Shown here piece after piece: positions 6,240 through 63,757 of a DNA stretch of 64,000 nucleotides. How positions within the stretch are numbered: the first letter of the stretch is position 1; each line of letters starts with the position of its first letter. The notes beneath the pieces were generated by a model. That model searched no databases. It saw only the letters and a list, made by a program, of their open reading frames with translations, and was not told the origin of the DNA. Position numbers and translations under genes: made by a program. The DNA comes from Brachyhypopomus gauderio (Eukaryota; Chordata; Actinopteri; Gymnotiformes; Hypopomidae). The stretch lies in contig NC_135221.1 of NCBI RefSeq assembly GCF_052324685.1, forward strand, positions 7,237,375 through 7,301,374, in the 5' to 3' direction.

Positions 6240-36581
<30,342 letters not shown>

Positions 36582-39315: not shown

Positions 39316-40093
39316 TCACAAACACTTCAGCAGGAAAAAGTTACAAAACGCCCCACGCGGGCAGTCGCACATCTTGCCGATTCGTGATCCTTTTCGAATT
39401 GCGCACTGCTCTCCGACGTCGCACTGAAAGTTTGACATTGCACAGTACTGAAGTGAGTACAAAATCACGCGCCTCAAACTACAATTCAAATGCGTCAACA
39501 TGCAATTACAAGTTATCAGGGAAAGCATTGCCAGAGTGTTAAAACTACGCGTCATTACTTGAGTGCGATAAAGCAACGGTCATAGATAATATTGTGTGCT
39601 ATGCAGATTTGCGCAATACATCTTACAGTTACATAAATCCATTTAAGATCCAGTTACCATAGGAACTTGTCCAAATTTCTTCTCCCAAGTAGGGATTTTT
39701 TTTGTCTGCAGTTTTTCCAGAACTTCGTGAAGAGCCCCGAGCTGGTAGAATAGAATGTTGCAGAAAAATAAAATAAATCATTGCAGTCATTTGTTCATTG
39801 AAAGACTTGCCTGGATAGACTTATAGACTTTGTTGCCGATTCAGTCAGAATCGGTAAAAGATCTCTGTCAACCTGTAGTCAGTCTGTTTAAATATTGTGT
39901 CTGGCGTAGAGAACAACATATTACTCACAAGTTGTTTTTCACTGGTCAGGTTAGGGTCCTTTGGGTAGAAGTCTCGAATGGCTCTCGTATCCAAGTCCAC
40001 CTCCATCTCCGAGTCATCCGCTCTCGCGCAAGTCATAAGGAAAAGCAGCAACGCGCATACTGCCGTTCTTGTCCACATGCTGGTGCTCTCCAT
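39316..40093 (-). CDS. cart: CART (cocaine- and amphetamine-regulated transcript) neuropeptide precursor
   Basis: CART is a secreted hypothalamic peptide that suppresses feeding and modulates reward and stress. Coding exons are 40093-39929, 39741-39658 and 39423-39316, with canonical splice sites and phase-0 joins, giving 118 residues (human 116). Residues 1 to about 25 form a signal peptide ([20 protein letters not shown]). The prodomain contains dibasic processing sites (TKK, EKK) before FGQVPM. The mature domain begins [16 protein letters not shown] and continues through MCDCPRG to FLLKCL, with the six cysteines of the CART knot. The final Leu is the native C-terminus of the family. The gene lies 2.7 kb upstream of map1a, on the same strand. 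Teleosts have several CART paralogues; which one this is I cannot say. Confidence 0.96.
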
Positions 40094-40149
40094 GGTCCTG
40101 AACGAAGGGAGCTTTGGCACTCAGGTTCGTACCGCCGTTGTTGGTTTCT

Positions 40150-47571: not shown

Positions 47572-48508
47572 TCAGGAACCTTGAGAAGCCTCATTCTTCA
47601 GTCTTTCCAGGAGCTCCTCTTGACTAATAGAGGCGTTAACTTTAACTATCTTTTCTCTGGATTTACCACCCTGAAATATAATAACAAACACAAACACACA
47701 CACACACATTATGTAGTCAATTACATAAAGATGGCGAAACAAAGTCAATACAAAATAATCACGGGGTTTTCGTATTATAAATGATAAATATCTTAATTAA
47801 AGTCTAGGCCCATTTGGACATTTTATCGCCGTAAGGTGTACCTTATCTAGGCTTATCTCACTCTTCCTCAACACCAGCACTTTGGATAAGTACCGCAGAA
47901 GTTCGGCGTTGGCCTCGCCGTCTGTGGGGGGGGCTGAGATGGCCACACCCACCGCCTCCGAGCTCACGTCTGACCGCAAACAGCCATGTCAGTACTTCAA
48001 CATTGTTGCTTGAATTAGTATTGAATAAGATAAAGGCTCTTTGCAGCCAGCTCAGAAACGCAGGCTCCCATTGATGTGGAAGATCACAACATTAGCAAAT
48101 ATACACCACCATTTTAAGCATGGGATGAAAGCACACAGAACAGAGGAAACATAGTCTGTTTCACCAAAAGTGATACACGTTTTATCAAATGTCCATAAAA
48201 CTATGGAATAACCAACCTGTGACAGCATTTTGCTTTGCTCCAGGCTTTGCGTGTATTGCGATTGCAAATTCACCGTCTTTGATTTTGGAAACTGGACCGG
48301 TCGGCGTTGCTTGTTGTTTCTGAACACTTTTAGTCTGAGCAGATATGAGGCATCAACATTAATCACTTAACACCAACGAATCTGAAATTATGGAAGAATT
48401 TACGCCAGTTACGTAACTCAAATTCTGCAGTGATAAACAACAAATAAATAAAATGACACTAGGAAGTTCAGATCCTACCGATTTGTCTTTTTTGTCTTTT
48501 TTGGGCAT
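47572..48508 (-). CDS. c15orf40: C15orf40 homologue, UPF0235/DUF167 family protein
   Basis: Small conserved protein of the YggU/DUF167 fold; its molecular function is not established. Exons are 48508-48479, 48334-48217, 47969-47842 and 47670-47572, all GT-AG and in phase, giving 124 residues from [10 protein letters not shown]. Family motifs are visible: [17 protein letters not shown], then [20 protein letters not shown], and [10 protein letters not shown] near the end. These match the human protein as I recall it ([38 protein letters not shown]). An in-frame upstream ATG at 48598 would add about 30 residues rich in Arg, His and Ser. It is divergent from the glutaminase-like gene, with about 0.7 kb between starts. 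C15orf40 lies in human 15q25 near SH3GL3, in agreement with the downstream neighbour. Confidence 0.93.
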
Positions 48509-48598
48509 CTTCCCGTGAGATACTCTTCCGTGGAGAAACACAGCCGTGCTCAGTCGTTTATGAAACACCTCAGCGTGTGTAAATGGCGGTATTCTCAT

Positions 48599-49301
48599 AA
48601 AACTACGTAGAGTCTGACAGTGCATTAAGTGCGGTGGTGTAGATTTAAAGTAAGCTACTTTAACACAAGTTAGCTGGTTAGCCGCTTTAGCTATCAAAAC
48701 ATGTCAGATAAAGAACTTTGCGCATGTCGTGAAATGTGCGCTGTGGTGCGTCAACTCTGCGTCCAAAACACGCAGGAAGGTTGATTTAGAGAAAGAATGA
48801 CGAATTCAGATTAAAGTCATTCTCCAATCTCCAGATTCTTCTACTTCAGGCATGGCAGTAAATTCTTTGGATGCGATCTAAATTATTGGGCATATCTGTT
48901 TAATGTCATGCAAATAGTGACTAAAATGGCAGTAGTATTAGTAGGCTAGTTTTAAGTTTCTAATCTGATCAAAAGTTGTTATACTTCATCTGCTACAACT
49001 ATTACATTTCTTACTGCTGTTCTCTAAAACATTTATACATAATCCACCACTGTCTACAAGTTTACAACGGTAAAGTCTTCTAGTCCCTCCTAGTCATTTA
49101 AATGCAGGCAGTCATGTCCCTCCTCCCGGTGGTTGGAACTGAGATGGTGTTTCTGGCTGTCTAGACGCAGTTCGAAACTCACCTCTACAAGGTTTACACC
49201 CAGTGATAGCAAACGCGTAGACCATCACTAGTCTAGCAGCTTGAGACATCTCACACAGGACTGTGGGTGGAGTGTAACAGTAATTTGAAGTCAAGACCAT
49301 A
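48599..49301. promoter_or_regulatory. Shared divergent intergenic region of C15orf40 and the glutaminase-like gene
   Basis: About 0.7 kb separates the two divergent starts. It has only modest CpG content near 48.7 kb and no clear TATA box. Shared control is possible but not shown. Confidence 0.35.
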
Positions 49302-52300
49302 ATGGAAAATAATTCAAACCAAGAAGCAGATGAAAATCCTTATGTCTGGTAAGATTATTTTCTTTCTATTTTGAGGTGTTACTTGAGGTGTTACTTAGGG
49401 AAAATATTATTTTTTCACATAGTCTTGAAATATAATTAAAAAAATTAGAGAACAGTAATAGTTCAGAAGCACATTGAAGTTATGCTGACAATTTTGTCAC
49501 AACATAAGACACTCAAGACGCCTCATGACTAGACTTGTACCAGCACAGATTATAAAAGTCTGTAGTTGTGACTGTTACTGCAGCTTCTGAGTATCAGTGC
49601 ATGTGACTGATCTTTCCACCTGTGCGTTTGCCTTCATTAACACCAACGGAAACAACACACTCCTGTCTGCATCTCTGGTTCTCTTGCTTATCTGTTGCTT
49701 GGAGAGGGAAAAAAAGTCTGACATTTTTTTATCAGTTTCCAGAGAACGCCCTCTCTGCGTCGCAAATGGAGGAAACGTTACGGGGGTTTGGACGGCAACA
49801 AACTGCTGGATCCAAACGAAGGCGATGACATGAGAGGTACCGGCCTACAATCAGCACTGCTCTAGCCTGTCATTTGGAAACGGCCCACGTGACTTTACAG
49901 CCCATCATTTTCACTGACAGTGGTCTCTAACTTTGGGTGTAACAGTTAGTAATTGTCCTTTCATGCTAGCCTAGAGGCAGCTTTTCTGACCCAAATCCCA
50001 TTTTAAAATATGGCAGAGTGAAACCACAAAACAGATCTGAAGTCAGCTTCAAAAAGGAGCCCTAACAATATGGGGCGGTCAGAGAGTGGCGCACTCCTGC
50101 AGACAGCCTGTTAAGTGGGCCTGTGGTTTGAGTTTTGGGTTGGACAACTTTTGGGAGAAACCGGGTGTGTCTGCAAGAGAAACCGACTCAAGATGAGGCA
50201 CTGTGATGTTTTCTATGTTTTCTGTGTGGTTTGTTTTCTGAATTAATGACTTATAAAGAAATAAGCCACACTGAATTATACTGATATTCCCATCAATATT
50301 TTATTTTAGGAATGATAAATTGTGACTTTTTGTCTCTTAATCTTAAGTTACAGGAATGTACTTTCATTGCTTAAAATGTCTCAGTGATAAAAATGTCATA
50401 ATTTACTTACTTTGAATACTTAACCATGAGTAATAAAAATAAGGAAAGTAGTCTCGTTTTTCTTCAGACGTCTGCTTCAGTGGCTCCTGCTTTGCTCTGT
50501 GGTCCATAGGCTCTTTTAATAACCAACTGGAGTATTTAAACAGGTTTCATGGATTCAAACTGCTGGTATATAGTTACTGTTAGAAGTGTTTTTGCTACAG
50601 ATAGCCAGGCCCAAGCCCAGACTTAAACGGTTGGCCATGTTTGCACAACTTTGCCTGGAATGCACCAATATAACTAGATATAGAATCTACTTTCTCTGAA
50701 AAAAAATGTTTTTTATGACCTTCCTCTCCAAAGTGGCATGTAGAGGTTGCACACAAGTTTATTTCAGTTTCCCAGTATGTATTGAAACCCAATCTGGCAG
50801 TTGGTATGTCTAATGCCCTTTAGAACACACTCTATGTACTCTATGAGTTATGCATATAGGCACTTTGGATTTACACATTAAACAATCTATGACATAAAAC
50901 CCCAATACAAAAAAACTGTCCTGAGATTGAAAATAGAAATTACAATTATAACTCACACCAACTCCAGCATGTTTGCTGTTATGCTTTTGCGTGGAATTCA
51001 GAGGTCATGAGAGGGTGCGACCCCTCTGCTAAAATACCTCTGGCCATCTCACCCTACAATGTCCTTACCCCACATCCTCTCATCATTTCGGGCCACCGCA
51101 AGTGAACGAATATAAAAATACTTTGATTGCTATTTCAGTATCAGTCCAAGGAGGTCTGCTTCTCCCATCTCACCTCCTTTCTCCTCCTCCTCTGCACTCC
51201 CTCCTCCTTTTTAGATAATGGTGTGATGACAGAGGGGATCCCAGGGCGGAATGCAGGCCCGGAGAGAAGTGCAGAAGTTGAGGTGCACGCTCTGTCTTGC
51301 TCATTCACCCACCGCCACATTCTCACACACGTTGTCCACAGGTGGCCTCACGCAGGGAGGGAGGAGAACATCTCCTGATTCAAACAGATATGAAAGGACG
51401 AGACCCGTAACCAAAGGCGATGGAATGAACTTCCCCGGCTGTCCGCACAGCTGAGACACTGGATAACAACTATTTGAAAGTTGCTATTCTTTACCGCTCT
51501 ATATAATGAGATTCTAAATACACATCATGCTTCCTCACAGTGAGTCAAACTCAAGGAGGCCACTGTAATATTTTGGTGATATCAGGAAGAACATTACATT
51601 ATACACAGCATGGCCTTGGTTGCCGGTTATGCTAGAAAAACCTACCCACACAAGGTAATAAGGCGAGGCTAAGCCAACGTGTCCTTTAATAAAACCACCC
51701 CTCCAGGCACTCTTGTTGTTGCTGTTGTCAGCCGATTCAACACATTCGTCATCTGCCGTGTTACCTTGTAAAGGTATCAATTAGTTTTTCCCTCCAAGAG
51801 CAGCACCTGCATTTACTCAGACATCAAAGAGCGTTCTGCACTGTGCCTTAAGGCTGTAGACGGTGCATCTCATATATCATGTGGATTCAAGTTCCTGTAA
51901 GCCCTTTAAATAAGCTAATTCAGATGTTTCCTCAACACCCAGAAGGAAAGCACTCTGATTAAAACCAGACAGTGGTTGATTTATCGCACAAACAAACAAG
52001 TTATAAACAATATAACCATTATACATTTTAAACAATTTAAACATTTTATTTGCATGCATTGTGCATTTATATATGTGTGTATTTTTCAGAAGAGTAGTCT
52101 TTCAGGGAACATTTCAGGGAACATTCCTCATGTTGTGCCAAGAAGCGTTCGGCTATCTCCAAGGTCTGTGAACTTAACATCTCCAGGCTCAACAGGTACA
52201 ACCACAGAGAATGTGTGTTTTAGTCTTCTCTATCTCTCTCATCACAACATGCTACCAAAACATTGTTATATCCTTTATATAACAGCAACAATAATCATTA

Positions 52301-55300
52301 CTATTATTGTTATTTTCATTATCATTATTGTTATTACTTGGTTATGAAGAATAGCCTTTCCCCATAATTACTGAAATAGTCCCACGGCTTTAAAGACGGA
52401 CTTCACCGTATTTCCCATTGGACACATTCTAAGTATTTATTGAATGGTTTCTGGGAGACTCTGGCAATTTTTACATCTGTTATGTAAATACTTCCTTAAA
52501 GATAATTTAAATAAAGTAATTACTGCAATTAAGCAATTAATACACGCATAGTTAACACTCCACATAATACACACATAGTAAACACTCCACAAAATACACA
52601 CATAGTAATTCTGCTTTTACAGTTCATTGAATGATTGTATTTGCCTACTGTGTTTTCATAACAACTGAACAAGTTAAGCAAACAACATTCTCAGGAATGT
52701 TTCTTTAAGAATGTAAATATCACTTTGAGCATGTCATTGGGCTAGTTTGAGTAAAACTCATGGTGTTCTGTTGCTTGTAGCCATAACTGGCACAAAAACT
52801 CTTTTTTTCATGGTTTTTTTCATTTACAACCAATGACCAACCTCACACTGCTGAGTGCTGAATGAGCTGGCGAAGACCGGTACAACATACCGAGAGTTTC
52901 TACGCTGCTTCCAGCAGATCTAACAACAGCGCAGAAGAAAATAGAATCACAACGGGAATATGTTGTACCAGAAATATGTTAATATTACCTTACTGTCTTA
53001 AAAAATATTTTGATGAATATCAATTGGCATATATGCAGGCATAAATATGATTAGAATTTATCTTGCCAATCATTGGTGGTGAAAAAGCAAAATTTTGAAA
53101 CTGCATATTTTGATACAAAAAGGCATGTAGAAACATGCACAACGTAGGTATCACGTGCTATACCTTCATTTTTGTCCCGACACCGAGGCGGTAGAATGGA
53201 CTTCCCCTGAACTTTGAATTGCCAGTGTGTATGAAAGGTGCTATATAAATAAACTTGCCTTGCCTTGACTGTCCGTACAGCTGAGACACTGGATGTGTTC
53301 TGATGAAGACTCGCACTAATCTCTTCACGGAGTCACTGAGTTCTTAAACGTGATAGTATAGAATTCACGTGATGGTAGAATTGATGTGATGATATAGGAT
53401 TGACGTGATGATATAGGGTTGATGTGATAGTGTAGGATCGATGTGATAGTATAGGAAGACACTATAATGCTCACATGAGTTTGTTTTAAAAGATATTACA
53501 AAGTATATAAATTTAAATACGGAAAACCTCCCCTTTAAGAGCTGCTTTGGAGGATGAGGATTTGACCTAGTGTAATGTGAGTTTAATCTCTATCAGGAGA
53601 ACTTATCCAAAACGTTTTGTTGTCAGTAAAAACTGCAGTGTCACACTCTTCCTCCCAGGCGTACCAGCATTCTGCAGCAATGGTGTAAAGGCCTTGTCCC
53701 TGCCAGCTGACCCAGAGCAGGCCCTCTCCCCCCAGCCCTGGCCCATGATCAGCAGGACGGAGACCCTCAACAGCCAGTCACACAAGAAAGTGTGAGTCTC
53801 ACACTTCTCATTCTAGCGACATTTAAAGAAACACGCGGTGTGGCCCAAATGTGCTTAAGGTCATTTGTGCTGCGTTTGTGCTGATACGTGCTGATGACCC
53901 GTGCTTCACTGCCACCGTTCTCCAGGGCTGCTGACGTGTTGTTTGACAGCTTTGCATCTGGAGGGCGAGTCAGCACAGATCGCATGTTTGAGGTAGCGGC
54001 GAATGGCAGTATACCTGGACAATCTCTTCATAACTGTTCTGCTGAAGGCATGTTAGATGCTGTGGGTGTTCCTCCTCCCCCTCAGACGCTGTGGAGCTGT
54101 GGCATTTTACGCACCGACCCGCGGATTAAAGGCTGCTACGCGTTGATGAGGAAGCTCCAGGATGCTGACGGGGCCGTGAGCAGAAGCACCTTCCACAGGT
54201 ACTGATGAGCCCTTCACCTTCGTAAATAAGAACTTCAAGCCTGAAATAAACCAGTCAGGCAGGTTCTGATCGGCTCCGGATGTTCTGCCGCAGGTGTGTG
54301 ACGGGTTTCGTGTCCTTCATCCTGAAGGCCTTGCAAGGCAGATTTGTCCTTCCCGATTTCTCCACATTCACCGAGGAGACCCAGAAGTTGTTTACTAAAT
54401 GCAAGCAGCTGTCTTCTGTGAAGGTGTGTGACTTCATTTCAGCTTTTCTTCTTTGGGCCTGTTCAAAGTCTCATTTTTTTAGAAATGTCAATGACTTTTA
54501 ATCTTAATATGTCAATATCTGAATGACTTTAGTGTACTTGAATAATGAGTTGGTGAGTCATATGCACGGCTGCGTTTTCCACCAGGAGAAAGAAGAGGGG
54601 AATGAGAATGCTGGAACGTGGGGGGTTTCCATCTGCACGGTGGATGGGCAGAGGTACAGAAGCACGATTGCCTATTTTGAAACACATAAGAACTCCACAT
54701 CACCAAGAACTCCACAACAGCCCTTCAAGAGGCTTGGGGTCTTGGGTTCTTGGGTCTTGGGTTCTTGGGTTCTTGCCCATGTGCTGCATTCTCAGCACTC
54801 TCTGTGCCATCGCGTTGTCAAGATGTTTTTGCCTGATGGATGAGCTTTAGATTCTGCTTACGTCAGATGTGCCTGTTTGGTTTTGGCTGCAGACTTTCTC
54901 TCGGTGACTGGGCAGAGCCTTGTGTTCTGGGAGAGGTGTGCTGGGCTCTTGTTTACGGGCTTGCGGTGGATCAGCTTGGAGTCGACTATGTACACAGATA
55001 TGTAGGGGTGGATGAATATGCCAAGTATGAATCCCCGTTTACTTTAAACAAACAAGGTAAGAACAAGAGGCCATATGTTACAGCCCACACTGTCATCTGT
55101 ACCAAGCAGTAAATAACACACAGGTATACACTGATAAACCTTTTTAGGCCAGGTTAAATAAAACTGGTACTGTTTCCTATCTGTAATAGTAAGTGTAATC
55201 CTGAGCTAAATCCCTATTGAGGGTGTATTTTATGTAAAGATCCTCAAACAATGTAGACTGTGTTGGTGTGGTTGGGTTATTCTGGGTTGCAGGTGTCCCT

Positions 55301-58300
55301 CACAGCCCCCTGACTGAAACGGGGGCTATTGTCAGTGCATCACTGCTGCAGGTGGGTGCAAGTTTGACCTTTGACCACCACAACACATTCACCAAAGAGA
55401 ATCAATATATGTGATGATTGTTTCTGCCTTGTAGCAGTTAACAGTGAGGCCAGTAACGGAGGAAGAGGAGAAGTATGAGTCAGTAAGCATCTGCACTAAA
55501 ATATAACCTTCAACTTGTAGATGGTTTTCCTATCTTTGATTAAAATTAAGCTTCAGCTAATCTACTTCATAATCTAATCTAATGTAATCTAATTAATAAT
55601 TTAACTTCTCTGTCTTGAATCCTCAGGTCTTGAATATTGTAAGACGACTGTGTAACAAGGAACACGCAAATTTAAACTGTACAAGGTATGTTACTTTCAC
55701 AGCCTTCTATAACATATATCAGATCGATCCGCTGGACTTCCGTGTTGTTCTCATCTCTTCAGTTACCAACGTTTGAGAAAGGACATCATTCGTCTGCACG
55801 CCCTTTCGTTTTATCTTCAGGAGAAGAAGGTCTGTGCATTTTCTTTCCTGATATTAAATTAAATTAACACCACTGTAAAAACATATTGGTACAGTGAGAT
55901 ATCGAACCACATGTCTTTTCTAAACTTTAACACTTTGATTCCTTCTAGTGCTTCCCAGAAGGCGTCGACATAAATGCCACATTGGATCTCCTGTTGCAGG
56001 TATTTAGTTCCACTATTTAGTCGATATTTAGTTTAGTTCAGCTGCAGTGTGTTCTAAGTCTAAGTCTGCATCTCTCACAGAGCACCTTGTGTTTAGTGTT
56101 TGTCTACAGAGGTCACCTGTGCGTCTGGAGCCGTAATGGCTGCCACTTTCGCTAACGGCGGCCTCTGCCCTATGTCAGGGGACCAGGTCCTGTCCCCGTC
56201 TGCGGTTCGGAGCGCACTGTCGCTAATGCAGGTGGCAGGGCTGAACGATTACTCCAGAGTCTTCCATTTTAAGGTCAGCATGTTGGACTGAATATCAATC
56301 CTGTTTATTCGTGCAATAAATGACGAGCATCAGGTGTCATGCTGTTCTCCTTACGTTAGATACAGAAAAATGAAAATATATAAGAGCAATTGCTGCATAT
56401 TTCTCCATGTTAAACAATTGTCTAATCTTATTGCACCATCTACTGGTAAGAAAGTAACTTATGATTCACATATTTAGTTCAATTCTATTACATTATTTTT
56501 ACAGTACAAAAAATAACCTCTCTAGTCTCCATTGAGGAATGTGATAGAAACAGCAGGATATCTGCTAAGTATGACACAGTGGTAGCAAAACCTTTTCTGG
56601 TTTTACTTATGCAGCCTTCAAACCAAACTGAATCATAATATGCTGAGGTAAGTGGAAGCATAATGGCTTTCACACTCTCTGCTCCACAGACCTCAGTTCC
56701 TGCTAAATCCAGCAGCTCCGGTGTGGTGCTGGCTGTCATCCCTGGGGTCCTGGGCCTGACCTGCTGGTCTCCTGAGCTGGACGCACACGGAAATTCCTGG
56801 AGGGGGGTGCATTTCTGTGAGGTGAGCTGCAAAGCTGGCTATGTTCACAGCAGACCAGTTTTACAGATGGAAATAAACTGAGCACGACATTAGCAGAATT
56901 GTACCTAATAGCGTACCTTATATTTTGAAGTCTGCCCTAAATAATTGCTCTTGGCACTGCTATTGTACATTGACGTTAACTGGCTGACTGTGCTGTAGCG
57001 TGATGCACCTTGTGTTTGTTGTGTCAACCTTTATTGGCCTGTTTTATTAGTGATCTGATTAATGTTAACTGGATGCTTTTAAGATATTTTTATACTATAA
57101 ATGCACTTGTAAGTACTGTTTATGCAAATTCTTATGAGTACAGCGTAATGTGATACATTTATGCATTCATTTATACCTACACATCATATCCACACATAAT
57201 TTGTCCTTTTTGTAAAAGCAAGTCTTGTCATGAATGGGACCGTTGGAAACACAGCACAACGGTGCAGAGAAAAAGCATTGCCATCAGCCATTTAACTCAG
57301 AACTGATCAAGAAGGGTGTGATATCAAACAGACATGGTTAAAGAATGGCGCTCCTAATGAACTGGCAACTGTGTCTTGTGTGTGTCACGCGTCTGCAGTA
57401 ATTCTCTGATGTGTTCAGGCGCTGGTGTCAGGTTTTCAGCTCCACAGCTTTGACATCCGGACTCCTTTCAGACAGGCGCTGTCCTACAGACAGTGGAAAG
57501 TGGAGTCTGAGGTGAACTGAAGCACGTCGAGGCCGTTCCTGTGGCATTACCCGCTGTGTTTGATAATAGGTGCAAACACCCACGCTTTCTTTGCCCCCAG
57601 GGTTACCAGATCATGAACGTGCTTTTAGCTGCTTACCGTGGCGACGTGCACTCCTTACGAAGGTAGGCACATGATGCACTGATGATGTCATTAAAGGTAG
57701 GGGGGGGGGGGTTCTCTTTTCAAAAGCATTAAAATGCATTTAACCCTCTACTGCACACATTATTATATCAACTGTTTTTTATCACTTAAAATGAACTTAG
57801 ATTTACATTTTTTTAGTTTTTTTAGAAATATTTTTTAAAGGAGTACGTTTGGTATGTTGCCATATAGCAACACCATGCATGTACAAGCTGAAAACAGTAC
57901 ATAAGTGGCAAACAGACATTATTTATCATCAAAGCTTCAAGAGCAGGATTTAAAAACTACCTCGCTTGGTTTGGTTCTTGTCTGATTTGTATAAATGCCA
58001 TAAAAACAGACTCGCAAAAATCATTTTAAGCAGTGGAAGTATCACCATCCATTTGACCAAGAACCTGTAATTAATAGAAGCCCAAGGTGTATAGTTAGCC
58101 CTCCTGTTGCCAGGCACGATTTGTGTTCTCCTGACCACAGGATTGCTGTTGGACGGACCATCCTCAGCCCAGCAGGGGTACTGAGAGAACTTCCCCAGCC
58201 CCGTTGCGTGGTGCTCACAGCCATGCCCCTTCTGACTCCACCCAGAAAGGGAAGGCTTTAGTAAACACCCCTGTGTTGGATGAGCAAGGCTAACGACGTG

Positions 58301-58897
58301 GGTGGCGAGGGCAGGTCTCACTGGTTTGTGTTGGCCCGGTGTTGGTCCAGTGATTTGAGGGCCGTGCCGCCGGCACTGTGCAAATGACGCAGATAGAGCA
58401 AGCGTGGCCGCACACGCTCCACTCCCCCTCGTTTCACACCCATTCTGAGGACCTCCCTCTGCTGTCTGTAAATAATGCGTCACCGTGGCAGGTACTTCCT
58501 GTCAGGAGCAGATGTGAATGCGGTGGATTATGATGGAAGGACTGCCCTTCACGTGGCGGCCTCAGAGGGGCGTCTGGAGGTCGTTGGCTTCCTGGTGGAG
58601 AACGCAGGAGCTGACTGTATGCTCAAGGACAGGTGAAGTTGAAAGAAAAAAATGGCCTGGATGATGTGTTGCGTGACCAGGTTTAGTTGTATATGAAACT
58701 GTATATATACAATATGCAATATTTAGATTGTATATTTCAACCTTTATTCCTGAATGATAATGTCAGATCTGTGATGCAGTGATGTGCTAACATTTGACAG
58801 GTGGGGAAACACAGCATTGCAAGAGGCTCTGAGATGTAATCAAGGTCCTGCCGCACACCTTCTGAAGAAGTTCACAAATTATGAGGAGAGTTTGTGA
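49302..58897 (+). CDS. Glutaminase-like protein with degenerate active site (21 exons)
   Basis: Exons: 49302-49348, 49736-49836, 51215-51282, 52090-52195, 53659-53791, 53926-53992, 54086-54198, 54294-54423, 54586-54653, 54893-55056, 55293-55351, 55435-55482, 55627-55685, 55763-55829, 55949-55999, 56097-56273, 56690-56821, 57419-57511, 57601-57662, 58492-58632 and 58801-58897. Phases match throughout, giving 660 residues (human GLS 669). Homology to GLS/GLS2 is clear: WGVSICTVDGQR, GVDYVHRYVG, YLQEKKCFPEGVD, VMAATFANGGLCP and CWSPELDAHGNS, followed by ankyrin repeats (DYDGRTALHVAASEGRLEVV, KDRWGNTALQEAL). Known GLS enzymes convert glutamine to glutamate in mitochondria. Here the Ser-x-x-Lys pair reads Glu292 and Trp295, and the other active-site residues are also changed, so catalysis is unlikely. 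The first 170 residues resemble nothing I know and lack a clear presequence; exons 1-4 rest on phase and splice sites only. It may be the gene called glutaminase-like in fish. A poly(A) signal follows. Confidence 0.9.
51421..51466 (+). mobile_element. Possible non-LTR retrotransposon ORF2 tail fragment
   Basis: TGGAATGAACTTCCCCGGCT and the following bases translate to WNELPRLSAQLRHW, like the WNxLPxxVR..S C-terminal signature found in fish LINE ORF2 tails. A similar stretch (CAGCTGAGACACTGGAT) recurs at about 53279. Strongly decayed; the family is not identified. Confidence 0.4.
53197..53297 (+). mobile_element. Possible LINE/SINE 3' tail fragment
   Basis: AGGTGCTATATAAATAAACT followed by short TGCCT repeats is the typical 3' end of vertebrate LINE/SINE families. 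It is followed by CAGCTGAGACACTGGAT, shared with 51449-51465. Confidence 0.45.
53345..53458. repeat. Degenerate short tandem repeat
   Basis: About five copies of a unit near GATGTGATGATATAGGAT with point changes, in intron 4 of the glutaminase-like gene. Confidence 0.8.
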
Positions 58898-58997
58898 TTG
58901 AGAAGGAAACAAAATTGTAGCCTGCAAACATCAGTCAAGTAACGGTCCTGACAGAGTGCTGATGAATACTGATCAAATTGTTACAAAGTGTGCTAGC

Positions 58998-59111
58998 CGA
59001 TACTTCATAACGAGTAGTTCAGCAATGGATATGTTTAATTGTTCAATAAAATAAATAAAAATATTTTACGGATCTCATTTAATAGTCTTGGACTGAAGTA
59101 ATCGATCTTTA

Positions 59112-59167
<56 letters not shown>

Positions 59168-59302
59168 GCATTTTGTTAGGGATGATGATACTTCATAATG
59201 AGTAGTTCAGCATACTTTATAACGAGTAATTGTTCAATAATATAAATAAAAATATTTGACTGATCTCGTTTAATAGTCTTGGACTGAAGTAATCGAACTT
59301 TA
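58998..59302. repeat. Tandem duplication around the poly(A) region, with (TATC)n between
   Basis: Copy 1 (about 59003-59112) and copy 2 (about 59190-59302) share CTTCATAAYGAGTAGTTCAG, AATTGTTCAATAA and TAGTCTTGGACTGAAGTAAT. A (TATC)n microsatellite (59112-59167) separates them. Copy 2 is followed by (TTTA)n (59309-59336). Confidence 0.9.
59045..59050 (+). terminator. Poly(A) signal of the glutaminase-like gene
   Basis: AATAAA lies about 150 nt after the stop codon, followed by an AT-rich stretch; an overlapping AATAAA begins a few bases later. A degenerate second copy of this 3' region is present about 190 bp downstream. Confidence 0.6.
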
Positions 59303-59708: not shown

Positions 59709-62700
59709 ATGTCCGTGGCGGGACTGAAGAAACAGTTGCACAAAGCAAGACAGGTAACGCAAACGATACGTTTATTTTTATGCGCAAAAAACTGTGCCAT
59801 AACTTATAAAGTATCACATCGTCAGTGTTGTTTAATACTTAATTTAGTTTGGTGACTTTTTTGTACGCGTTACTATTGTTAATTCATGTGCTATATCTGG
59901 ACACTGTCACATCACGCTTTCTATTTCTAGCCTACATCATTCATACGGTCCAATCTGCCTCACAGATTTAATCCGTTTACAACAAAACACAAACCGCATA
60001 TGATCAGCACATGTTTCAAAAAGTGGCACCATATAATGACCGTGACACCGGCGACTGAGCTGCGGGTCCCACCTTGTGTAAACGAGCCAATATTCACTTA
60101 TTCACCTTGAACTGATTTACAGCAGTAAAACAAGTACTATAAGGGCAAAGGAGATAAGTGAACGTAAATTGTAAATTAACGATGGAAAATTGTCCTGAAC
60201 TAGTATTATATAAATATACTGAACCGTTCCAACGTGTATTCTGCTAATGTTAATGTAGAAAGGGTTTCCACATTAACGTTAGCAGTATACATGTCGGGAT
60301 ACTAACTAGTGATGTACTATTGGAGAGGAATCTTTCAGTTAAAAGGGCTTCGTTAAACCAGTGAGTTTGCAAAGTATGAAGAAAGCTGTATGGAAAGTTA
60401 CTAATTATGTATTTTATCAGATAATGTTGGACAAAAATGAACGAGGTTCTTAGACTCCAATTAATAAAAAAATGTAGTGCCTGTGATGGAGATGGAGACT
60501 GTGATGTCACTCGGGAAGGTCTCAGGAAGATCTCTGTCTGCTGCTCCAGAGAGTTGGCACTTTGGTCCGTCATCAGGGTCTTGTGTTTGCCCGCCTTCAT
60601 CATAAATGGTGTCAGAGATGGGTACCATGAGACCATCAGGAGTGTGTCCATAGTTAATGACCCCCACCCTTTGCTGGTACCACGCCCAGTGTGAGTCCCT
60701 GGGCTTGGGTGTGACCCTGCACGAAGGGTGAGTGCATGAGTGTGTCACGCGCAGGGGTGCACGTGCAGTGTGTCACGCACAGAGGTGCACTCCCCAGGGT
60801 GAAGGTGTGTATTGAGTATCAAGAGACTGTGACTCCCTGAAGGAGACACTTGTGTGATGGAGTCGCTCAGGAAGTGTGTGATCCTGCTGGTGTGTCAGAA
60901 CTGAGCTCTCTGCTGTGGGGGCTTTGCGTCTGGCACCAGGTCCACTAATGTTAAAATGCAGGATGTGCAGAATGTGATTATTCGATTCACATTACCTGAT
61001 AGAGACCAGAGCAGCGGTAACAGATATGAAAATAGAAATATGCATGATAGACCAGTCTATTAATACTCACTTCTGAGACAAACATGAAGGCTTTAGGTAG
61101 CACAGTGACCGGGGGTGGGGGGGTTGGGGGTAATCACTGACTACTGACCTACAGAGAAAAGTTGACAAATGGTTCTTTTGTGTGTTCTATGTATTCCACA
61201 GAGCAGTTTGCTTAATGGTACCTTGCATGTGTCTTTTTCAATGTAAGTCCAGTTGTTCAATGAAAAGGTCAATGGAGTTGAAGGAACAAAGTTGGATGAA
61301 GATTTTCTCAAAATGGAAAAGGTACGAACTGTTAAATGAAAGGTAGCGTTCAATGTGACTGGTTTAAACCTGTGAACCTACCAAAGATTCAAACTAATAC
61401 ATCTTTTTGCTGACCTTGTTGTAGAAGACACAGATCACTCACAAATTGATTCTGGACCTTGTTACAAAAACCACAGAGTACCTTCAGCCCAACCCAGGTA
61501 TGGCTATAAGAGGTTTCATGGTTATCTCATCACTTTACTACTCTTTAAGCAATTGGATAATAATAAATTCATTCAAATGTTATTTTCTGCCATCTCCCCT
61601 GGACGCTCAGCATACAGAGCAAAAGTGAGCATGCTCAGCACGGTGTCGAGGATCCGTGGGCAGGTGAAGATGACAGGATACCCGCAGACAGAGGGCATGC
61701 TGGGAGACTGTATGTTGCACTATGGATCAGAGCTAGGGATGGAGTCAGCATTTGGTATGTTTGTAAGATAGAATAAAACTCCCTAATGGTCATTCTAGAA
61801 AGTTTTTTAATTACTTAGAGCAACAGTACATAATAGGTTTGAGTTGTGTTCACATTACAAACTTACTACGTATTCTAGTCACTAGGTTTTACAACATATC
61901 ACAAATACTATGTGAAGCTTTCTAATCAATGAACAAAATAGTTTGGAGAAAAAAAGCATTTCCTCTGTTGGGCTGTATTCTAGCTCATACTTTTGCTGCT
62001 AGGCTGTGCACTAGTGGACATGGGACACGCCTTAAGGGATATGGCCAAAATTAGAGACTGTCTGGATGTGCGTGTGAAACAGAGCTTCATCGATCCTCTT
62101 CAGATTCTGCAGAACAAAGAGCTGAAGGAAATCGCAGTGAGTCCTGCAATATTTATGCAAAGAAACCAAAACAAATCAATAAAGGGGCATGAGTTCCTTC
62201 CTACTAATACTGTACCACCTCTGACTCTCAAGCACAAACGGGCCTTGCCTATGCTGCTCCTGCAGGTACATCATCAGAGGATAGTGTATTTCTACTCATG
62301 ACTGAATGATCTCTTTATTTCCTGTTTTGCAGTATCATCTGAGAAAACTTGAAGGCCGTCGTTTAGATTTTGATTACAAGAAGAGGCGTAAAGGGAAGAT
62401 CCCAGACGATGAGATAAAACAGGCACTGGAGAAGTTTGAGGAGTCCAAAGAGCTTGCAGAGAGAAGCATGTTCAATCTCATAGAAAATGATGTAAGACAT
62501 CTGAAATGTATGCACTCAGAAACATTTCCGTCTGTGTGACGCCACTTAAACTCGATATGTCATGTATACTTTAGAAGGATCAGGTACAACAGCTGTTAGG
62601 ACTCACCGAAGCAGCACTGGACTACCATCGACAGACGTGCCATGTTCTGGACAATCTCCACAGCAATCTGCAGAACAGGTCAGAAGGACGGCCCAAACGC

Positions 62701-63757
62701 TCCAAACGCTTGTTTCATTTCAGCAGTGATTTTTGAGTTATGAATGTGACATCCTCCCTGGGCTCAGGCTGATGGAGGCCAGCAACAGACCCAGGACGGA
62801 GTTTAAGTCAAAATCTGTTGCAAGTTCATTGTGCTATACAGACATTTATGGATTTTCGACGTGCTCATCGCCGCAGTCTTCAGGTGTGGTGTTTTTTTTT
62901 TGTTATCAGAGTTCTAGAATGTTCTAAAAATCATCTGTTTTCACTGATTTTTTCCTCTGTCAAAAAACTACTGTTCCTCTAAACTACTGTTCCTCTAAAT
63001 GCTGAGATTTTAACTTTGTTTAATGTGGCAGATACTGAAATAACTGAAGCATTTAGTGAAAAACGTAAGTATGATTTAATACAAATAAACTATAGACAGA
63101 CTTAAACCCATCACTCTGCATGTTTGAAGTTCTCAGAACCTTGACTAAGTCTGTGTGTACTGTTTGTCCATTCCTGCTAGATGTCACTCCTGTGGTCCAC
63201 AGTACCAACCAGACTACCGTCACACCCCAAGCTTCAAACCTTTCAACTCACAAAAGTAAATAATTGCAATTTGCTCTTTGTTTGAAAACAAAACAGAGCA
63301 AAAGATTTCTTCTGCAATTGACTAGCTATAATTTATATAAAGGTTTTATTTAGGTTTTTTAAATGTTTATATTTTCATTTAAAAAAAGAAAATTTAATTG
63401 CTAGCCTTTTGTACTTTTTTAATGGACTTGGCAGCAGTATTGTCAGATTAGATATCTCTCACATGTTACTAAATTTGTGATGTGTGATAACGGTGTACAA
63501 CTAGATATTGTTCTTAAGGTCTATGAGGATTCATGGAAAACTATTTTATTTTTGCAGACTCTCCACTGGACCAACCTTGTTGTCGAGCACTTTACTGCTT
63601 TAAGGCTGAAAATCAAGGAGAGTTAGGCTTCAAGATGGGTGACATCATTTTTCTCACCAGTAAGATCGATGCAAACTGGTATGAAGGCATTCTGAGAGGG
63701 GAGTCTGGCCTTTTCCCCATCAGTTACGTTGATGTTATTGTACCGCTGCCACAGTAA
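59709..63757 (+). CDS. sh3gl3: Endophilin A3 (SH3-domain GRB2-like 3)
   Basis: Endophilins bend membranes through an N-BAR domain and recruit dynamin and synaptojanin through an SH3 domain during clathrin-mediated endocytosis. Exons: 59709-59753, 61253-61321, 61425-61497, 61611-61754, 62003-62136, 62333-62491, 62575-62678, 62768-62883, 63032-63064, 63181-63255 and 63558-63757. All join in phase, giving 383 residues (human SH3GL3 about 347). Helix 0 is [20 protein letters not shown]; the BAR core includes [37 protein letters not shown] and [20 protein letters not shown]. The variable linker is residues about 245-318. The SH3 domain starts at [11 protein letters not shown] and ends [20 protein letters not shown] then VIVPLPQ. 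A3 is chosen over A1/A2 because [12 protein letters not shown] and the ending VIVPLPQ match SH3GL3. The ALYDF motif reads ALYCF. Confidence 0.96.
59754..61252 (+). other. sh3gl3: sh3gl3 intron 1
   Basis: No second gene is supported. Two overlapping frames at 60250-60694 lack known motifs. The minus-strand one lacks any recognisable domain. Confidence 0.5.

Follow-up and report, generated by a model that had tools for sequence, protein, structure and literature searches.

The window analysed here, a stretch of 64,000 nucleotides from Brachyhypopomus gauderio (contig NC_135221.1, positions 7,237,375 to 7,301,374), carries a glutaminase-like gene at 49302-58897 on the + strand, probably the teleost gene glsl. 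Judged from its sequence, this gene likely encodes a pseudoglutaminase, that is, a protein in which the layout of the family is complete and glutamine hydrolysis is predicted to be lost. The confidence in this statement applies to the pseudoenzyme reading, apart from the role of the protein. We infer that the product is translated, catalytically dead and selected for a non-catalytic role.

Domain layout and nearest relatives

The gene model comprises 21 exons with 660 codons plus stop in an intact frame, and 20 of 20 introns are of the GT-AG type. The 660-residue, 21-exon frame without stops or frameshifts described in a first-pass annotation was thereby upheld, while its span of 54086 to 56821 covers exons 7-17 only. 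Pfam analysis of the predicted protein revealed the domains EF-hand_14 (residues 154-232), Glutaminase (263-541) and Ank_2 (570-650). The match to PF04960 (Glutaminase) scored 211.2 bits against a cut-off of 27 and extended over profile positions 14-286 of 286, placing the protein in this homologous family. An EF-hand-like N-domain followed by a catalytic domain and ankyrin repeats is the vertebrate KGA-type architecture, and the domain order is identical to that of human GLS (KGA) and GLS2 (EC 3.5.1.2). The best solved relative was human GLS2 (chain 8t0z_A, E 7e-121, over residues 153-653), followed by human GLS (chain 8gwr_B, E 2.4e-117, over residues 153-651), with identities of 202/496 and 201/494 aligned residues, respectively. 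Compared to both human enzymes, however, the fish protein lacks all eight pocket residues, has a lid shorter by 4 residues, an exon 12 longer by 5 residues and a diverged activation loop, and starts with an N-terminus that is unrelated in sequence and without evident presequence.

Loss of the active site

According to the structural literature available to us, S286 is the nucleophile of glutaminase, K289 the base and Y466 a further catalytic residue; E381 binds the substrate and Y249 closes the lid (PMC10912226, PMC13218152). A docked substrate analogue was contacted by N388 and Y414, and by N335 in simulation (PMC13204110). Exchange of Ser219 for Ala in GLS2, corresponding to S286, disrupted activity (PMC8130709). 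The fish protein was aligned with 26 references, namely human GLS, human GLS2 and 24 bacterial glutaminases (18/18 loci from genome contigs and 6 of 208 matching plasmid records), the activity of which is assumed from family membership. Human GLS numbering was verified on 8gwr_B for Y249, S286, K289, N335, E381, N388, Y414, Y466, S482 and V484. The first eight of these positions other than S482 and V484 form the pocket set; they are invariant in 26/26 references, and the fish protein retains 0/8.

Exon 10 (54893-55056) encodes S286E (fish residue 292, codon 54933-54935) and K289W (residue 295, codon 54942-54944), and exon 11 (55293-55351) N335E (residue 341, codon 55316-55318). E381L (residue 392, codon 55773-55775) and N388L (residue 399, codon 55794-55796) are located in exon 14 (55763-55829), Y414L (residue 425, codon 55991-55993) in exon 15 (55949-55999) together with the CFPEG motif, and Y466N (residue 477, codon 56244-56246) in exon 16 (56097-56273), which holds the MAATFANGG core. 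In exon 17 (56690-56821), V484 (V in 25/26 references, I in one) is changed to S (residue 495) and G483 to S; the pocket-adjacent K481 and S482 are retained. The replacements at S286, K289, N335, E381, N388, Y414, Y466 and V484 had been listed in the first-pass annotation from alignment by eye, and all proved right against the references. Its claim that the whole active site is lost stands for the pocket positions and is slightly too strong in view of K481 and S482.

Four further glutaminase loci are present in the same genome (C4 13.5 Mb, C1 31.2 Mb, C23 0.56 Mb and C4 30.9 Mb). Copies A, B and C keep 8/8 pocket residues and copy D keeps 7. Copy D, which is gls2-like (L045:8182-8184, C4 ~30.948 Mb, +), differs in the pocket at Y466 alone, which is a histidine (CAT); this may point to a less active enzyme, a variant or a fault in the assembly.

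The lid is encoded by exon 9 (54586-54653), which also carries CTVDGQR and starts at the same intron in the fish gene and in the GLS-type paralogue A. It is 4 codons shorter than in paralogue A and reads EKEEGNENAG where paralogue A reads VADYIPQLAKFSPD. Opposite Y249, the aligners placed a gap in one alignment and E in another. Because the lid exon is shorter by these codons and residue 255 ends the preceding exon, the lid tyrosine is without counterpart in the predicted protein, and the earlier assignment of Y249 to K255 was incorrect. Likewise, the offset to human GLS is not constant (+6, then +11) as had been assumed; it amounts to +10 immediately ahead of the lid loop, +6 behind it and +11 beyond exon 12. 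Changes extend to the activation loop in exon 10, where F318 (F in 25/26 references, Y in 1) is replaced by E, accompanied by R317Y, E325K and an altered K320.

Taken by function, the S-x-x-K pair of nucleophile and base and the catalytic tyrosine of an active glutaminase read E, W and N in the fish protein, and the substrate-contacting residues N335, E381, N388 and Y414 read E, L, L and L. Since all of these are gone, as are the lid tyrosine and the phenylalanine of the activation loop, the protein is predicted to be unable to hydrolyse glutamine. A remodelled pocket that binds another ligand or carries out another reaction would suit the radical nature of the replacements (E, W, E, L, L, L, N) and the retention of K481 and S482. 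We consider it quite improbable, however, as a recognisable substitute catalytic set is absent and both lid and activation loop are altered.

That an error in the gene model or the assembly conceals intact catalytic exons is hardly credible, even though exons 1-5 were called solely from their open frame and splice signals. The first-pass annotation had named alternative exons restoring S-x-x-K as evidence that would overturn its own reading. When the window was searched by tblastn with GLS and GLS2, each detected exon of the catalytic domain occurred in a single copy, with no alternative to it (the shortest exons went undetected), and a motif scan in six frames over 48801-59200 yielded 9 matches, zero of them in a glutaminase-like context. 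Moreover, introns 6-20 agree in phase with those of paralogue A (15/15, by eye), and the changed positions are distributed across exons 9, 10, 11, 14, 15, 16 and 17.

Selective loss and probable constraint

The loss is concentrated in the pocket. Other positions invariant in the references were kept in 15/26 cases, compared to 0/8 in the pocket (one-sided Fisher p = 0.004), and in 15/21 cases with the lid left out (p = 7e-4). For deeply conserved core positions the figure was 31/40 (p = 6e-5); these positions show one residue throughout the canonical vertebrate rows and agree with 85% or more of the bacteria, and the pocket and its neighbours, the lid and the activation loop were excluded. This exclusion set was chosen after the structure papers had been read, and without it 31/44 were kept. 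Retention was higher at bacterially conserved positions than elsewhere (51/74 vs 30/69, p = 0.0025). As many as 43 of 46 hydrophobic-type columns, defined by sequence, stay hydrophobic-type (39 under a stricter choice of letters); among the 22 columns that changed, 19 do so (p = 9e-4). Positions invariant in vertebrates were kept to different extents in the ankyrin region (26/36), the catalytic core (98/187), the linker (7/17), the N-domain (17/37) and the lid (0/8); the ankyrin value agrees with the earlier statement that these repeats are preserved. An open frame, lost catalytic residues and a fold that appears to be kept, as judged by sequence alone, characterise a pseudoenzyme.

This pattern has to be weighed against a decaying pseudogene, or a relaxed copy that is still open by chance. 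Random mutation of this coding sequence gave a mean of 3.5 stops at 10% of residues changed, and simulated neutral change at 35-46% of residues altered gave about 12-15 stops. At each level of at least 0.1 substitutions per site, 0/300 simulated runs stayed open, whereas the 21 exons of the fish gene are free of stops and splice defects. Seven of the lost pocket residues have a clear counterpart, and their replacement required a minimum of 15 nucleotide changes; neutral evolution to such a depth would leave many stops. Because the frame is intact, the hydrophobic columns are conserved and the simulations of decay yield stops, neutral decay is disfavoured, and the gene does not look like a copy that has long been without constraint. 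The clustering of losses in the pocket and loops, with retention of hydrophobic-type columns, and the existence of loci named glsl in zebrafish and coho salmon also argue against decay, which we regard as unlikely.

Several observations nevertheless weigh against a constrained pseudoenzyme, the first two of which speak for decay. Outside the pocket, 11/26 invariant positions were lost as well, including C418, G470 and G477. The branch is extremely long, with a tip length of 1.74 for the fish gene compared to 0.10 and 0.08 for the human enzymes, and of 3.19 compared to 0.04-0.16 for canonical vertebrate rows in a tree with the fish paralogues; such a branch also fits partial relaxation. In the latter tree the fish gene was placed beside human GLS2 (92/77), a placement that we distrust; with so long a branch, the trees put the gene neither firmly before nor firmly after the GLS/GLS2 split. 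A recent release from constraint, after loss of the pocket and too young for stops to have appeared, may be compatible with the simulation. Furthermore, the inter-monomer R317-E325 contact described in the part of the literature available to us is lost, and H461, a monomer-monomer self-contact, is Q. Finally, the protein is known here from the genome sequence of one species. On balance, the proposal of the first-pass annotation that the gene encodes a pseudoenzyme under constraint is well supported at the level of sequence, given that the pocket was lost as a unit and that the frame, the fold positions and the ankyrin repeats were kept.

Identity of the gene

The gene was assigned to teleost glsl by gene set and neighbourhood rather than by sequence comparison, and the assignment is probable. 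Directly downstream, at 59709-63757 (+), lies a BAR+SH3 gene of endophilin type, which by our own reading we take to be SH3GL3-like. The locus is a fifth glutaminase locus with an sh3gl3-type gene nearby, as expected of teleost glsl. In coho salmon, glsl and sh3gl3a were reported within one 0.5-Mb interval, the order inside which is not stated in the part of the source available (PMC8102513). Zebrafish possesses glsa, glsb, gls2a and gls2b as well as glsl, an additional gene predicted by Ensembl that groups with neither GLS nor GLS2 (PMC6197330), and the same four-plus-one set is found in the B. gauderio genome. Among the 67 of 104 first-look candidates that were scored in a whole-genome search for a second glsl copy, there were the C11 locus itself, the four canonical copies and matches confined to ankyrin repeats.

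The glsl locus is already named in print and, in the excerpts available, uncharacterised. Zebrafish glsl and glsb were both seen in swim bladder (PMC6197330), glsl was down after glula knockdown (PMC11546858), and a value of -2.033 is listed for it in an insulin-resistance model (PMC9368350). In the accessible parts of the literature searched, among the matches listed, we found neither a statement on the catalytic residues of glsl nor a report of it as a pseudoenzyme; nor was any pseudoenzyme within the serine-dependent glutaminase family found among these matches. A partly comparable case is PDX1.2 of plants, according to the text available likewise a disabled paralogue retained beside active ones.

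Interfaces and possible role

Evidence from the interfaces, as read from the alignment, is mixed. The residues R387, Y394, E397 and K398 of the phosphate/dimer-dimer site (PMC10912226) are all retained, and since Y394, E397 and K398 vary among the references, their retention suggests more than upkeep of the fold. Of seven published filament-contact residues in the part of the source available, F355Y, F373L, N375C and F378Y are changed and Q379, D412 and Q416 are kept. We assume that the glsl protein would still oligomerise and present its ankyrin repeats, and that it would neither bind glutamine nor form ordinary filaments.

GLS is mitochondrial, with residues 1-71 given as the localisation sequence (PMC13218152). 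By composition count, the first 20 residues of the modelled fish N-terminus contain 1 K/R and 4 D/E, a figure that depends on the uncertain exons 1-5. As this N-terminus is acidic and without evident presequence, a scaffold outside the matrix is favoured over mixing with mitochondrial Gls. We therefore tentatively put forward, as the most likely role, a homo-oligomeric platform located outside the mitochondrial matrix, on which the ankyrin repeats would be available to partners. This preference in localisation could be overturned by a first exon that the model has missed.

Second in rank stands regulation of active Gls through mixed oligomers, a rather doubtful alternative in which the protein would enter oligomers with active Gls or Gls2 and lower or tune their activity or cap filaments. 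The conserved dimer-dimer site would suit such mixing, a ratio of 4/7 changed to 3/7 kept filament contacts is what a filament cap might look like, and both glsl and glsb occur in zebrafish swim bladder. These points are opposed by the lack of an evident mitochondrial presequence in the gene model, whereas GLS is mitochondrial, and by the strong divergence of the N-domain and of the activation loop together with H461Q. Partner binding, hetero-oligomerisation and scaffolding, all suggested in the first-pass annotation, thus stay at the level of proposals; the missing presequence weakens hetero-oligomerisation, though exons 1-5 are uncertain.

A broader reading would have glsl as a fish-wide, anciently neo-functionalised pseudoglutaminase with scaffold and ankyrin tail kept, acting as a regulator or scaffold in swim bladder or elsewhere. 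We consider this somewhat less likely than not.

Gene model and neighbourhood

Exon 1 (49302-49348) begins with a predicted start codon at 49302 and is followed by exon 2 (49736-49836), exon 3 (51215-51282), exon 4 (52090-52195) and exon 5 (53659-53791). Homology searches of Pfam and solved structures gave zero matches to these five exons (~residues 1-151), which are therefore the uncertain part of the model. Exon 2 encodes a polybasic stretch, LRRKWRKR, which could serve as a nuclear signal or in membrane binding, provided that exons 1-5 are real. The EF-hand_14 domain begins in exon 6 (53926-53992) and continues in exon 7 (54086-54198), and the N-terminal domain ends in exon 8 (54294-54423). 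The intron following exon 6 is in phase with paralogue A; the intron preceding it disagrees, which fits an unrelated 5' end.

Within the catalytic region, exon 12 (55435-55482) accounts for the 5 additional residues relative to GLS and exon 13 (55627-55685) continues the joined frame. The dimer-dimer-site residues are encoded by exon 14, and the acceptor at 56097 for exon 16 keeps the frame open and agrees with GLS. The glutaminase domain ends in exon 18 (57419-57511). Exon 19 (57601-57662) contains the linker and the beginning of the ankyrin repeats, which continue in exon 20 (58492-58632) and end in exon 21 (58801-58897). Exon 20 corresponds to two exons of paralogue A, which has one additional intron in the ankyrin region. 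The C-terminal NYEESL precedes the stop; its E-S-L, a PDZ-type ending looked at by eye, is left as a candidate.

Elsewhere in the window, a DUF167 gene (approx. 47600-48510, -), presumably C15orf40-like, is arranged head to head with the glutaminase-like gene. A CART (cocaine- and amphetamine-regulated transcript) neuropeptide gene is located at 39319-40120 (-), with a Pfam CART match on roughly joined exons. A 3693-codon open stretch at 6886-17964 (-) matched the MBL_MAP1B domain and belongs to a MAP1A/B-type protein.

Implications

Glutaminase is a central metabolic enzyme and a drug target, the activity of which depends on tetramers and filaments. With a natural relative in which much of the fold persists and the chemistry is gone, the roles of scaffold and ankyrin tail could be told apart from that of catalysis. 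If the fish-wide reading is true, glsl would be the first pseudoglutaminase in its family known to us, and its annotation as a glutaminase would be wrong across fishes. Changes in glsl expression, which were grouped with metabolic or glutamine-pathway genes in the portions of the zebrafish studies available (PMC6197330, PMC9368350, PMC11546858), would then need rereading.

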